Positions 1,615-13,144 of a stretch of 64,000 bases of DNA are shown here, one piece after another. Position 1 is the first letter of the stretch, and each line of letters opens with the position of its first letter. The notes beneath the pieces were generated by a model, which was not told the origin of the DNA, did no database searches, and was given only the letters and a program-made list of their open reading frames with translations. Source of the DNA: Dielma fastidiosa (lineage in GTDB: Bacteria; Bacillota_I; Bacilli_A; Erysipelotrichales; Erysipelotrichaceae). The stretch spans positions 108,572-172,571 of the forward strand of contig NZ_HE578924.1 of assembly GCF_000313565.1 (NCBI RefSeq), in the 5' to 3' direction. A program made the position numbers and the translations under genes.

Positions 1615-1926
1615 GTTTTTACCTCGTTTCTTTATAAAAAGTATAACACACAAATGTTTATATCAAATTAGATTTTATATGCTATTTTAAGTGTTGTTAA
1701 TTTTATCTTCATAATTTAAAGTTGTATTTTCTATTCTATTTTTTATGTTTTTTTCAATCAATGATTTATAGATCAAAATTTACTTTTTTTAACTATATTA
1801 CTGAAAATAAGTTCACCACTTAGTGAGATTTTTAATACCCTAATTTATAAATTTCTTTTTAGCTTTCTACAATAATATGGTTTTGTATAAGAAGAATTAA
1901 GACATAATTTGATAACTACTTCATGT
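1615..1926. other. AT-rich intergenic region
   Basis: About 310 bases between pduL and the kinase gene, strongly AT-rich. It should hold the pduL promoter. I see no RNA gene, repeat or convincing short gene. A short frame downstream of the kinase contains two cysteines but has no start or ribosome site of its own. Confidence 0.5.
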
Positions 1927-3195
1927 TTATTCCTCTTTTGGTAAACATATTTGTGCAGTGAATATGTTGTTTTCGATATGATTATCATATAACCCTTCAT
2001 ACCTATCAACAACTTCTTGAATATTTTGTATACCATAACCGACATGATGTGGTTTCGTAGATAAAAAGCTGTCGTTGCTTGTTTTTAGTTGATGACAATA
2101 AGTGTTGGATAAACGAATGACTATCATACAATTCTTGGAAAAGATTGCAAGTTCAATTTTTGGTTCGTCACAAAGCTTGGCAGCATCGAGTGCATTTGAA
2201 AATAAATTAGAAAAGATGGTAATTAATTCTGTATCCGGTATCTTTCCAAAAGTTATTCGTGTGTCAATTGAATAACTGAAATTAACATTAACTTCTTTAC
2301 ACTCACCAATAAAATGTGTAATTAGTATTTTTAAAGCTTTATTGCCAACTGAAACAGTGTCAAAATCTAATGATTGAAATAATTGTTTCGAGTAATTCTT
2401 AGCACTATCAATTTCATTGTTTTGATATAGTTGTTCTAAAATATGAATATGTTTTTTAATATCATGATTTATTTTCATTTGTTGTTCATATTGCTTAATT
2501 TTCTCAGCATTATACTCATTGCTTAATTGCTGCTGCAATTTCAAGAGTTCTAAATTATGCTTTAGCTGTACATTTTGATTTTTTCTTTCAATAGCAAAAA
2601 CACAATATATACTAAATAAAGAGATAACTATACAAATAAAAATCATTTCATATAAAAATGAAGAAGGTAAATCCTTTCTGATGAAACGTGAAATATTAAG
2701 GATTTCCAAAAAGCTAACAATTAATATAATGTATTCAAAAACATGCTTTATTTGCGACCCCTTTTTACTTTTTGAAAGCAGCATCTGCAGAGGGTTATAA
2801 GCAATTATCATCAATATCGTGCTACATAAAACGGATATGTAATATAGATGTTGTATATCTATATCCAAAGTAACAAAAACTATTTGTAAAAAAAAGCCAA
2901 TACATGTTTCCAAAATTAATAATAAAATAAATAGTAGTAACGTTAATTTATAGATACCCACCCCTTTATAGAGCAGTGTTGTTAAAATAAGATAGAAAAT
3001 AAAAGACCATAAATAATTCAAATAAGTATTCGCAAAAAAATTAATTCCAACATTGATTAAAACACATATACCAAAATAAGCCAAATAGTTACCATTGTGT
3101 TTTTTTTCAAAATTTAAACTCATAAAATTCTCAAAAATAAAGCAGGTCGTCGAGCAAGAAATCAATAATACAATGAATTTAATTGATAATTCCAT
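1927..3195 (-). CDS. AgrC-like sensor histidine kinase (GHKL type)
   Basis: 422-residue membrane histidine kinase. The first ~200 residues form about six hydrophobic segments, as in AgrC/ComD peptide-sensing kinases. A coiled linker follows, then a phosphoacceptor region with HDIKKH (His near residue 245). The C-terminal GHKL ATPase domain shows the N-box (NLFSNALDAA) and a glycine box (GYGIQNI). It lies five bases after the response regulator gene and has no strong ribosome site, which suggests translational coupling. No agrB/agrD-like processing or peptide gene is visible here, so the ligand is unknown. The gene lies in a segment more AT-rich than the surrounding metabolic genes. Confidence 0.85.
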   Translation of the reverse strand: MELSIKFIVLLISCSTTCFIFENFMSLNFEKKHNGNYLAYFGICVLINVGINFFANTYLNYLWSFIFYLILTTLLYKGVGIYKLTLLLFILLLILETCIGFFLQIVFVTLDIDIQHLYYISVLCSTILMIIAYNPLQMLLSKSKKGSQIKHVFEYIILIVSFLEILNISRFIRKDLPSSFLYEMIFICIVISLFSIYCVFAIERKNQNVQLKHNLELLKLQQQLSNEYNAEKIKQYEQQMKINHDIKKHIHILEQLYQNNEIDSAKNYSKQLFQSLDFDTVSVGNKALKILITHFIGECKEVNVNFSYSIDTRITFGKIPDTELITIFSNLFSNALDAAKLCDEPKIELAIFSKNCMIVIRLSNTYCHQLKTSNDSFLSTKPHHVGYGIQNIQEVVDRYEGLYDNHIENNIFTAQICLPKEE

Positions 3196-3200
3196 GATTA

Positions 3201-3944
3201 CTAAAAGTTTTCTCTGATAAATTCATTAAATTGTTTTCTAACGCCAGATGCTCTTTTTTGAGATAAAGGTATTACAACATTATTAGTCATTATGATTTCA
3301 TTATGTCTGAAAATTTTTATATAATTCATATTAACAATAAATGATTTATGTGGAATAATAAATATATCATTAGAAAGCTCGTTGTAAATATGACTTATTT
3401 TTTCTTTTACGATATAGGTTGCATTATTGGTATAAATTTTAACTACACGATTAAATAAATCTTTCAATTTATCAAAATACTCTAAATAAATAATCTCATT
3501 ATGTGTTAATATTACTCTTCCTGTTGTAGTTTGAAAAGTAGATTTATGAACTTTTACCGGTTCAAAATATGTGTACTTATAAACATCATCAAGTAATTTA
3601 AATAATTTTAATTTCGAAATTGGCTTGCATATGTAGTCAAAAGCATGTACCTCATATGATTCAAAAATATAATCAGAATAATCAGTGATAAAACAGATAA
3701 AACAAGCCTGATTGACATTCTTGATTTTTCTAGCAATTTCGATACCATTGTAAACAGGCATATCAATATCTAGAAGGATAAGATTCAATTCAAGATAATT
3801 GGATTCTAAAAACAGCATTGTATTTGTGTATTCTTCAATCTTAGCACTGTAAGAATGATTTTGAAGATAGAGCTTACATAATTTAGAAATTTCCTTTACT
3901 TGCATTGGATCATCATCAACAATAGCAATATTAAATTTATCCAT
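3201..3944 (-). CDS. LytTR-family response regulator (AgrA-like)
   Basis: 247-residue response regulator. The receiver domain (residues 1-120) has the acidic pair VDDD, phosphoacceptor Asp in LLDIDMP and the conserved Lys in ICKPIS. A C-terminal LytTR DNA-binding domain (about 140-245) shows a typical IIYLEYF...PHKSFIVN pattern. It pairs with the kinase just downstream. The start at 3944 follows a GGAG ribosome site; the reading frame continues upstream but has no such site there. The divergent small-membrane-protein genes with conserved leaders are the obvious candidate targets; this is inferred from position only. Confidence 0.9.
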   Translation of the reverse strand: MDKFNIAIVDDDPMQVKEISKLCKLYLQNHSYSAKIEEYTNTMLFLESNYLELNLILLDIDMPVYNGIEIARKIKNVNQACFICFITDYSDYIFESYEVHAFDYICKPISKLKLFKLLDDVYKYTYFEPVKVHKSTFQTTTGRVILTHNEIIYLEYFDKLKDLFNRVVKIYTNNATYIVKEKISHIYNELSNDIFIIPHKSFIVNMNYIKIFRHNEIIMTNNVVIPLSQKRASGVRKQFNEFIRENF

Positions 3945-4084
3945 ATAAATCACTCCCCCCTTTTGCTTCATTATAAATGATACGTCTTGTCGGTTCAACA
4001 AAGTAACACAATGTCTACATATAAACGCTTAGTGTATTTGTATAGGTGAATCTATTCATTAATAATGATAATATAAAATAATTT

Positions 4085-4203
4085 GATGCAAATGATACTT
4101 TAAGTATGATTTGTTATCTTTGAAGTTAAATTGTATAGAAATCATGATAAATAATCTACACTTTAGTTGTACACCAAACTGACTTGTAGAATGGAGTGTG
4201 AAA
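4085..4203 (+). repeat. Leader repeat, copy 1
   Basis: A 119-base stretch directly upstream of the first small membrane protein gene. It matches 4524-4642 without gaps, with 12 mismatches by hand alignment. It contains a near-palindrome (GATACT-tta-AGTATG) at its left end, a possible promoter (TTAAAT, 16 bases, TAAATA) and the GGAG ribosome site. The leader is better conserved between copies than the genes it precedes. Confidence 0.85.
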
Positions 4204-4518
4204 ATGTCAATGAATAAGAAAATCATTATCAAAAATTACCGACAATTGACACTAGATTATGTTTTGCTTTACTCATTCCTAATAATAAACAATATATTAA
4301 GCTACTATGCCATCTTGCCATTAAGTATCAGCTTGTTGATCCTAATCTTAACCCTTTATTTTCATCATAAGTTGGTTAAGAAAGACTATGCTGATGATGC
4401 TAGTAAGATAAGATTTAAATATAAGTTAATAATTTGTGTGATTTTTATATTGTTTCTAAATACATGTTGGTTTGTCGATGTTTTCATTAAATTTTTAATA
4501 AATAGTATTGGTTCATAA
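4204..4518 (+). CDS. Small multi-pass membrane protein, paralog 1
   Basis: 104-residue protein of unknown function. A short basic N-terminus (MSMNKKIIIKNYRQ) precedes two hydrophobic segments (about 16-35 and 38-55). A charged loop and one longer C-terminal hydrophobic stretch follow. It resembles its neighbour at 4643-4951 along the full length, so the pair arose by tandem duplication. ATG at 4204 follows GGAG at seven bases; a GTG six bases earlier is too close. Size, topology and the adjacent peptide-sensing-type kinase would suit an immunity or signalling accessory protein, but no family is recognised. Confidence 0.7.
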   Translation: MSMNKKIIIKNYRQLTLDYVLLYSFLIINNILSYYAILPLSISLLILILTLYFHHKLVKKDYADDASKIRFKYKLIICVIFILFLNTCWFVDVFIKFLINSIGS

Positions 4519-4523
4519 AAGCG

Positions 4524-4642
4524 GATGCAGTTGATACTTTGAGTATCATTTATTATCTTTGAAGTTGAATTGTATAGAAATGATGATAAATAGTCTACAC
4601 TTTAGTTGTACAACAAATTGACTTGTGGAATGGAGTGTAAAA
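4524..4642 (+). repeat. Leader repeat, copy 2
   Basis: Second copy of the 119-base leader, gap-free against 4085-4203. Here the palindrome is perfect (GATACT-ttg-AGTATC), followed by a possible promoter (TTGAAT, 16 bases, TAAATA) and a GGAG ribosome site. Its presence before the second gene means that gene probably has its own promoter. Confidence 0.85.
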
Positions 4643-4951
4643 ATGTCAATGAATAAAAAAATTCTCATCAAAAATTACCAACAGCTAGGACTGGACTATG
4701 CTTTGCTATTTTCATTTCTAACACTAAACAATATTGTAAGCTATCATGGCATCATACCGCTAAGTGTTAGCGTATTAATCTTAGTATTAACCTTTTTTCT
4801 TCATCATAAGTTTGTTAAGAAAGAGATTGAGGTTGATAGCGGAACATTAAAATTTTACCTATTTATTTTCATTTTCATTACGCTTTTCGTTAAAACTTGC
4901 TGGTTCTTCGATATATTTATTGAATTTATAAAGAATAGTATTAGTTTGTAA
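4643..4951 (+). CDS. Small multi-pass membrane protein, paralog 2
   Basis: 102-residue paralog of the protein at 4204-4518, with the same basic N-terminus (MSMNKKILIKNYQQ), LSVSVLIL hydrophobic core, HHKFVKK loop and TCWFFDIFIEF C-terminal segment. Divergence is greatest in the charged loop. ATG at 4643 is placed as in paralog 1; the upstream in-frame GTG at 4625 is rejected because the ribosome site lies inside that extension. Function unknown. Confidence 0.7.
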   Translation: MSMNKKILIKNYQQLGLDYALLFSFLTLNNIVSYHGIIPLSVSVLILVLTFFLHHKFVKKEIEVDSGTLKFYLFIFIFITLFVKTCWFFDIFIEFIKNSISL

Positions 4952-5012: not shown

Positions 5013-6218
5013 ATGAGAAAAACTGAACCAGTGTTGCTTTGCCTTTTGCTTATGTCTGGGTGTGCATATGAAAAAGTTGACGAACCTTCAGTTCCTGTGC
5101 AGCCTTTAGTTCCTGTACAAGAAGAAACCAATCCGTATCAACATCAGAAATTAATGCAAATATCTGAGGAATATAAATATTTACCTACCAAAGTAGCTGA
5201 TAAAGAAGAATTGTGTAAGGGATTGCCTTTTGATGATTATTTATCCATTCAATATGCAGAAAATGGCAAAGTCTATTATATCGTGCATGACCCTATTAGC
5301 GATAACCGGCAAGTTTTATTATGCGCATATGATATTGAACAAAAACAAGTTGAGATATTAGAACAATGGTCAATTGGTAATCTTTATATTTCATCATTTG
5401 CATATATCAATGATACTCTTGTATACTGTACGATAAATTCTTATGATGATTTATTAGCGGAATACATAATATTTATTAAAGAAGGCGATGAAGTAAAAGA
5501 AATTGACAACGGAAAATTGCTTACCTACTACCTCAACAGCAGCCCTATACTAACCAAGGTCGGCAAACACCTTTATTACGGCACCATGCTTCACGATATT
5601 GATGAAGATGGAATTGGAAAAGTAGGCTTTAAATTTGTGAAAATAAATAACGGAACCGCTGAAACGTTAATTTTAAAAGATTTTTCATTTTCTTACTATG
5701 AATATGATAACAACCATTTTGAAAGGTATCGTTACTTGATTTTTAGTAATAATCAAGTTGCCGCATTAGCATGGGATGATGATAAATCTTATGCATATTT
5801 ATATGATGATATCAAAAAGGATTTTAAGGTCATTGAAATTCTAGGTATGCAAGACTTTATGGGCTTTTTAAACAACGATTTATTATTTTCGAAAGTGTTT
5901 GACGGCATGAGTTACCCTTCCACAGCACTGCCCTATTCTTTATATGATATTAATACGGATAGAATCAGAGAGGTCGGCTGGGATAACTATCAATATGTTT
6001 CTTTTCTTAACGATAATGAGCTTCTTTGTTACAATGAATCATCTGAGTATTGGGTTATTTCACAAAGTGAAAATGGAAACGTAGAAGCCACTGAAGTAGA
6101 GTTTAAATGGGATATGAAGATGCCACATATTGGTAAGGGTTATGCTTTGAATGATAACCAATTTCTTATAACTACTTCTGAAGAAGTGTGGCTATGCAGC
6201 AAAACTTCAATTGAATAA
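5013..6218 (+). CDS. Putative lipoprotein with beta-propeller-like repeats
   Basis: 401-residue predicted lipoprotein: short signal peptide, lipobox LMSGC, then a Pro/Val-rich spacer (about 22-45). The remainder is rich in Tyr, Asp and alternating hydrophobics, with recurring pieces such as VYYIVHD, LYYGTML and YAYLYDD, as in beta-propeller proteins. No enzyme motif is seen. AAGGGG lies upstream of the ATG. It follows the duplicated membrane proteins on the same strand, but a shared function is not shown. Not recognised as a named family. Confidence 0.65.
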   Translation: MRKTEPVLLCLLLMSGCAYEKVDEPSVPVQPLVPVQEETNPYQHQKLMQISEEYKYLPTKVADKEELCKGLPFDDYLSIQYAENGKVYYIVHDPISDNRQVLLCAYDIEQKQVEILEQWSIGNLYISSFAYINDTLVYCTINSYDDLLAEYIIFIKEGDEVKEIDNGKLLTYYLNSSPILTKVGKHLYYGTMLHDIDEDGIGKVGFKFVKINNGTAETLILKDFSFSYYEYDNNHFERYRYLIFSNNQVAALAWDDDKSYAYLYDDIKKDFKVIEILGMQDFMGFLNNDLLFSKVFDGMSYPSTALPYSLYDINTDRIREVGWDNYQYVSFLNDNELLCYNESSEYWVISQSENGNVEATEVEFKWDMKMPHIGKGYALNDNQFLITTSEEVWLCSKTSIE

Positions 6219-6258
6219 AATGTTGTGATAAGAAATAACTGTCTTACAAATTAAAATA

Positions 6259-6312
6259 AGGAAGTTTTAAAATCATTGAATTTTCTAATCAATGAAATTA
6301 AGCCTTCCTTTA
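6259..6312. terminator. Bidirectional terminator between convergent genes
   Basis: Outer arms AAGGAAG/CTTCCTT and inner arms ATCATTGA/TCAATGA form a long hairpin with T-rich flanks on both strands. It serves the lipoprotein gene and the glycine cleavage operon end. Confidence 0.8.
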
Positions 6313-12936: not shown

Positions 12937-13071
12937 CCTGAAAGATTTCCTTCCTTAGAAGTTGCTTCGTCGGTGTTTTTATCTTTCCAGAGTTTCGTCT
13001 GGATATGGTCCTTTTGCCTGAGAGTTTATTTGCAACTGCCCCTTCGGCGCCCTACGGTCTCTCCCATATCC
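12924..13071 (-). ncRNA. Tandem glycine riboswitch (gcvT motif)
   Basis: Two consecutive aptamers read leftward. Aptamer 1 (13071-13001) is closed by P1 GGATATGG/CCATATCC and has the GGGAGAGACC, GCGCCGAAGGGGCA and AAACTCTCAGGCAAAAGGACC cores. Aptamer 2 (12992-12924) is closed by CTCTG/CAGAG and has CACCGACGAAGCAA and CTTTCAGGTAAAA. The short linker contains GACGAAA. This two-aptamer layout upstream of gcvT is the classic glycine ON switch. Confidence 0.96.
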
Positions 13072-13144
13072 TTCATCCGATATGTTGGTTAGCTTCTTTT
13101 CTAGTATAATCTTACCATGATGAAGATATGCGGTCAACCAAAAT

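Follow-up and report, generated by a model that had tools for sequence, protein, structure and literature searches.

The 64 kb stretch of Dielma fastidiosa DNA analysed here (the window) contains a module that is best read as a two-component system of agr origin that has only the receptor side and faces, in divergent orientation, an ORFan membrane gene present in two copies. That the kinase-regulator pair derives from agr is very likely, and the pair probably controls the twin membrane genes. The full mechanism, in which an agr-type receptor without its signal counterpart senses a peptide and has a protective output, is given a probability of about 0.45. According to this proposal, an AgrC-like membrane kinase would sense an extracellular peptide released by other bacteria, or some other kind of ligand, and would phosphorylate an AgrA-like LytTR regulator. 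The regulator would in turn activate the divergent leaders; each leader may supply its own gene copy, which encodes a protein with three predicted transmembrane segments (3-TM protein), with a full promoter and a translation-start region. The 3-TM proteins would most likely be protective, making the cell immune to, or tolerant of, a membrane-active peptide. The elements of the module are the following.

1621..4951 (no strand): AT-rich stretch holding the whole module (composition)
1927..3195 (-): AgrC-like histidine kinase, 422 aa; PF14501 (HATPase_c_5) 66.9 bits, 46% identity to G113:C80:4733-6001
3201..3944 (-): AgrA-like response regulator, 247 aa; PF00072 57.3 bits, PF04397 44.3 bits
3970..3998 (-): candidate promoter of the regulator-kinase operon, TTGAAC-17-TATAAT; consensus scan, 10/12 matches
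4085..4203 (+): leader A; 107/119 identical to leader B, 0 gaps
4094..4108 (+): dyad GATACT-N3-AGTAT in leader A, imperfect (final G); pattern search
4103..4132 (+): candidate 9-12-9 direct repeat AGTATGATT-N12-AGTTAAATT, possible LytTR site; weak
4204..4518 (+): ORFan 3-TM membrane protein A, 104 aa; no Pfam or NCBIfam family
4524..4642 (+): leader B; starts 5 bases past the gene A stop codon
4533..4547 (+): dyad GATACT-N3-AGTATC in leader B, perfect; pattern search
4643..4951 (+): ORFan 3-TM membrane protein B, 102 aa; 59% identity to A

The duplicated unit consists of a leader and its gene and measures 439 bases. Across the module the G+C content is 20-30%, compared with a window mean of 40%, a composition that would fit acquisition from elsewhere and is not proof of it. 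A mobile-element origin of the kinase-regulator pair was considered and rejected: viral contigs yielded 0 relatives of the pair, and the plasmid search returned only generic kinases and LytTR regulators. Beyond gene B, at a distance of 62 bases on its 3' side, lies a gene for a 401-aa lipoprotein-like protein without family match (window 5013-6218 (+)), which could be on the same transcript as gene B; a long inverted repeat is located past it, near 6258-6312.

The kinase-regulator pair and its agr-associated relative

The kinase combines an N-terminal membrane sensor with a GHKL ATPase and carries the motif MKINHDIKKHI, and the regulator consists of a receiver and a LytTR domain according to Pfam. 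These profile matches (HATPase_c_5; receiver and LytTR) confirm the assignment to a peptide-sensing-type kinase and a LytTR regulator that the earlier note had made from the letters of the sequence. Among 268 genomes of the family queried with the kinase, a comparable kinase occurs in only one other genome, G113, which holds the best relative of both proteins (regulator 51% and kinase 46% identical, full length). G147, a second genome of the same genus, encodes a related regulator (45% identical) with no kinase beside it, and the divergent arrangement is common to the window, G113 and G147. The contig scan queried with the regulator returned distant regulators only.

The G113 relatives are encoded in a single locus comprising the regulator, the kinase and, directly 3' of the kinase, AgrB sequence (PF04647, 25.5 bits; cut-off 23). 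A 39-aa ORF, MDTLLNFIANLFYSIANNSVNSTCVGPLFQIKEPKQLKK, which comes after the divergent genes of this locus, matches the AgrD family TIGR04223 with 29.6 bits (cut-off 19). Since the related pair sits with both agrD and agrB sequence, the window pair can be assigned to the agr receptor type, in agreement with its earlier description as AgrC/AgrA-like.

Two further observations concern the surroundings of the relatives. The divergent genes of G113, located at L061:2924-3816 (-) and preceding agrD, encode an XRE regulator and a small, 198-aa protein with a C-terminal LytTR domain, and they diverge from the regulator-kinase-agrB genes. The G147 regulator lies just upstream of an ABC-transporter cluster and diverges from an ORF whose small product, rich in glycine and alanine, is bacteriocin-like (L062:830-1090 (-) and 2466-4430 (+)); this small ORF has a strong ribosome site and no standard start codon.

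Conservation of the duplicated leaders

Alignment of the two leaders (119 versus 119 bases) reproduces the ungapped match with 12 differences that had drawn attention to this locus, 107 bases being identical. The proteins that the leaders precede are 59% identical, their codon-aligned DNA is 71% and its third positions are 60% identical, and with dN at 0.25 and dS at 1.30 (NG86) the genes do differ far more than the leaders, as was originally stated. The leader differs at 12/119 positions as opposed to 41/102 third codon positions (Fisher's exact test, p = 2e-7), and a comparison restricted to third positions where both codons specify the same residue (21/59, p = 7e-5) likewise places leader conservation far above that of synonymous sites.

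The conserved block does not coincide exactly with the leader. Sliding identity is about 90% throughout the leader and for ~15-40 bases into the coding sequence, and about 70% thereafter, and upstream of 4085 and 4524 there is no homology above background. A two-rate changepoint model places the end of the block at 4218 (range 4200-4246), either within the coding sequence or at its border. The 12 differences are slightly more evenly spread than random (P = 0.035 for gap variance, 0.12 for the longest run). Because the block enters the coding sequence and the differences are evenly spread, gene conversion is possible, and the earlier conclusion of a pressure acting on the leader is not established.

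The strongest competing explanation holds that the likeness of the leaders stems from a recent gene-conversion tract or uneven recombination rather than selection, and that the twin genes are perhaps regulated independently of the pair. Tandem copies 439 bases apart are natural partners for such an exchange, and separate binding sites for a protein should show up as protected islands set apart by variable spacers, whereas the leaders contain no protected sites that stand out and no indels. However, the block has its 5' edge beside the gene A stop codon and its 3' edge in the translation-start region, where functional limits would be expected too, and a tract confined to the leader next to genes with a dS of 1.3 needs to be small and well placed, or else requires selection against converted genes. 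Constraint on the whole leader would give the observed pattern equally well, as would recent homogenisation. We consider gene conversion a serious contender, if one on which we would not wager.

Search for the signal half

The earlier note saw no agrB or agrD in view of the pair, and this holds genome-wide at profile sensitivity. The 3.6 Mb genome to which the window belongs is 98.5% complete; it has no PF04647 match at E <= 0.01, and its best TIGR04223 match, a 17-residue frame at 17.3 bits, stays below the cut-off; AgrD is a short protein of which an unusual form could escape such a search, and the genome is 1.5% incomplete. Four of the six relatives searched alongside (G113, G090, G006 and G020) match both the AgrB and the AgrD family above the cut-offs in at least one place each, and the search control therefore works.

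Within G113, only the start of agrB follows the kinase, at the end of contig C80, and the remainder opens another contig, C68 (junctions L061:6009-6186 and L087:1-130). Inverted ends, CGCTTAACTTGCAATTTGTTG and its near-complement, are present at the two junctions, each of which has the same 8 bases, TAATATTT, on its outer side, in the manner of an 8-base target duplication. The gene appears to be split by an insertion element, and we infer that C80 and C68 adjoin.

These results also bear on the idea that the system is a signal-blind remnant, whose signal genes have been lost, whose kinase and regulator are drifting and whose twin genes are chance neighbours. Undetectable agrB and agrD in its own genome and an apparently interrupted agrB in its closest relative speak for such an origin. 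On the other hand, frame breaks would be expected in a decaying pair, yet both window genes are full length and align with their G113 counterparts at 46-51% identity with hardly a gap, and the H-box of the kinase (NHDIKKHI) and the receiver aspartate region of the regulator (LLDIDMP) are both present. This remnant reading is distinctly improbable.

Candidate control signals in the leaders

The receptor-only reading places the twin genes under the control of the regulator, and the leaders were searched for signals in several ways. GATACT-N3-AGTAT(C/G) is present in both leaders, as first pointed out from the sequence, and its common core GATACT-N3-AGTAT has no further occurrence in the 64 kb (0.02 expected); because one site is a copy of the other, they count as a single event. 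The promoter-like segment that the leaders were thought to share could not be recovered: no sigma-70 match falls at the same place in both, and a simple sigma-70 scan is near chance (13 versus 8.6 +/- 3.2 expected) and identifies no common leader promoter.

LytTR regulators bind 9-base direct repeats that are usually 12 bases apart and situated just upstream of the -35 element (PMC6193735), and the AgrA binding site lies upstream of P2 and P3 (PMC4227749). Both leaders contain a repeat pair with a spacing of 21 bases, AGTATGATT-N12-AGTTAAATT in A and AGTATCATT-N12-AGTTGAATT in B. The leaders agree in nine windows at spacing 21, but in none at spacing 20 or 22, a weak enrichment (P = 0.024 over spacings 20-22); spacing 36 scores equally, and across spacings 11-49 the P value is 0.29. 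The 9-12-9 repeat is a possible LytTR site, a candidate and no more. Against the LytTR consensus, the leaders and the intergenic region score at chance, and equally at chance is the search for a motif common to the leaders and the divergent promoters of G113 and G147, which found none. With repeats that are weakly enriched, a consensus score at chance and no motif shared with the relatives, regulation of the twin genes by the facing LytTR protein, as envisaged at the outset, is not established. A wider regulon was rejected: the weak matches of the leader elsewhere in the genome are at chance level and mostly within genes.

Action of the leader at the RNA level, through a hairpin over the ribosome site or a short leader peptide of the type LLSLKLNCIEIMINNLHFSCTPN that controls translation, is very unlikely, for although in both copies a helix of 9 pairs can form over the ribosome site and a frame of ~20 codons is open, the two leaders fold differently and barely better than shuffles (z = -2.1 and -1.1), their ribosome sites are of ordinary accessibility (ranks 17 and 3 among 40 genes), Rfam has no match in them, and the short frame lacks a ribosome site and shows no preference for silent changes (3/6 differences change the residue), so that both an RNA element and a leader peptide were rejected. 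The only Rfam match is distant from the leaders, a glycine riboswitch (RF00504, 61.9 bits) at window 12996-13076 (-), and the same-strand genes downstream of it resemble glycine cleavage and lipoate genes.

The 3-TM proteins and their third copy

Counted by reading the sequence, proteins A and B each have a positively charged N-terminus followed by three hydrophobic segments; a simple hydropathy count gives two clear peaks in each, and a structure model of protein A has four helices at low confidence (mean pLDDT 60). Neither protein matches a Pfam or NCBIfam family. The relatives found are A, B and a third copy only, all from this genome. The third copy is located on another contig (G000:C4; C4:155341-155649) and is 26% identical, with an alignment score of 89 against a block-shuffle mean of 34 that 0/3000 shuffles equalled. 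No convincing 3-TM relative emerged from the family, 316 genomes of the order, 392 sampled genomes of the phylum, phages, plasmids or viral contigs; the weak hits were rejected as they contain stop codons or belong to longer, unrelated frames.

Operons that combine a sensor pair with an ABC exporter and a CPBP protease have the familiar make-up of peptide resistance or immunity modules. The third paralogue ends an operon of this kind (L077:330-7444 (-)), in which it is preceded by an OmpR-type sensor pair, an ABC ATPase, a 750-aa ABC-2-like permease with an M1 peptidase domain (PF01433), a second permease of this kind and a CPBP protease (PF02517). It is because the third copy ends a peptide-resistance-like operon that the 3-TM proteins are read as protective, and its setting hints at a role of the family in peptide tolerance or immunity. 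A bacteriocin or lantibiotic immunity gene protects against a named peptide and usually adjoins the gene for that peptide; no bacteriocin-like ORF was recognised when the small ORFs around the twin genes were inspected by eye. A check on co-occurrence that had been set beforehand found the twin genes absent beside the related regulators of both G113 and G147, which are distant relatives, and an association of the twin genes with the pair is therefore not supported. The suggestion of an undescribed signalling or immunity module is partly supported: the pair is indeed AgrC/AgrA-like, and for an immunity role the evidence comes only from the neighbours of the third paralogue.

Implications

If the receptor-only reading is true, this bacterium has the receiving half of agr only, wired to a membrane gene family for which the 392 other sampled genomes of its phylum and the 316 of its order gave no find, and it would provide a simple case in which to test whether species overhear each other's peptide signals and use them to trigger protection. 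G113, with its apparently split agrB, would show how receiver-only systems can arise. A more specific version, an eavesdropping defence in which a bacterium without an agr signal of its own uses the agr receptor to sense the cyclic peptides of other species and switches on a duplicated, lineage-specific protective membrane protein, with a separate, selectively maintained promoter for each copy, seems rather unlikely as a whole.

Comparison with known systems

The complete agr system (AgrBDCA), known for example from Staphylococcus, Listeria and clostridia, shares with the window a GHKL AgrC-like kinase and a LytTR AgrA-like regulator. It differs in that the window genome is without detectable AgrB and AgrD and in that the divergent genes here encode ORFan membrane proteins. 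Because AgrB and AgrD were searched for and neither was found, the window system is not filed as a complete agr. Half systems have a precedent in Clostridioides difficile, where agr1 consists of agrB1 and agrD1 only (PMC8534292); the window has the opposite half, a receptor without a signal.

The LytTR Regulatory Systems (LRS) HdrRM and BrsRM are composed of a LytTR regulator and its membrane inhibitor (PMC6193735); an LRS has no kinase, and the inhibitor gene shares the operon of the regulator. They resemble the window in having small membrane proteins beside a LytTR regulator, for which 9-12-9 repeats are the expected binding site. The window regulator, in contrast, has a receiver domain and belongs to a full two-component pair, and its membrane genes are divergent, which places the module outside the LRS definition. 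LytST-LrgAB, with its LrgA and LrgB targets, differs as well, since the twin proteins match no Pfam or NCBIfam family. Finally, an operon built from a sensor pair, an ABC exporter and a CPBP protease ends with the third 3-TM paralogue; the window locus itself is without exporter and without CPBP protease.
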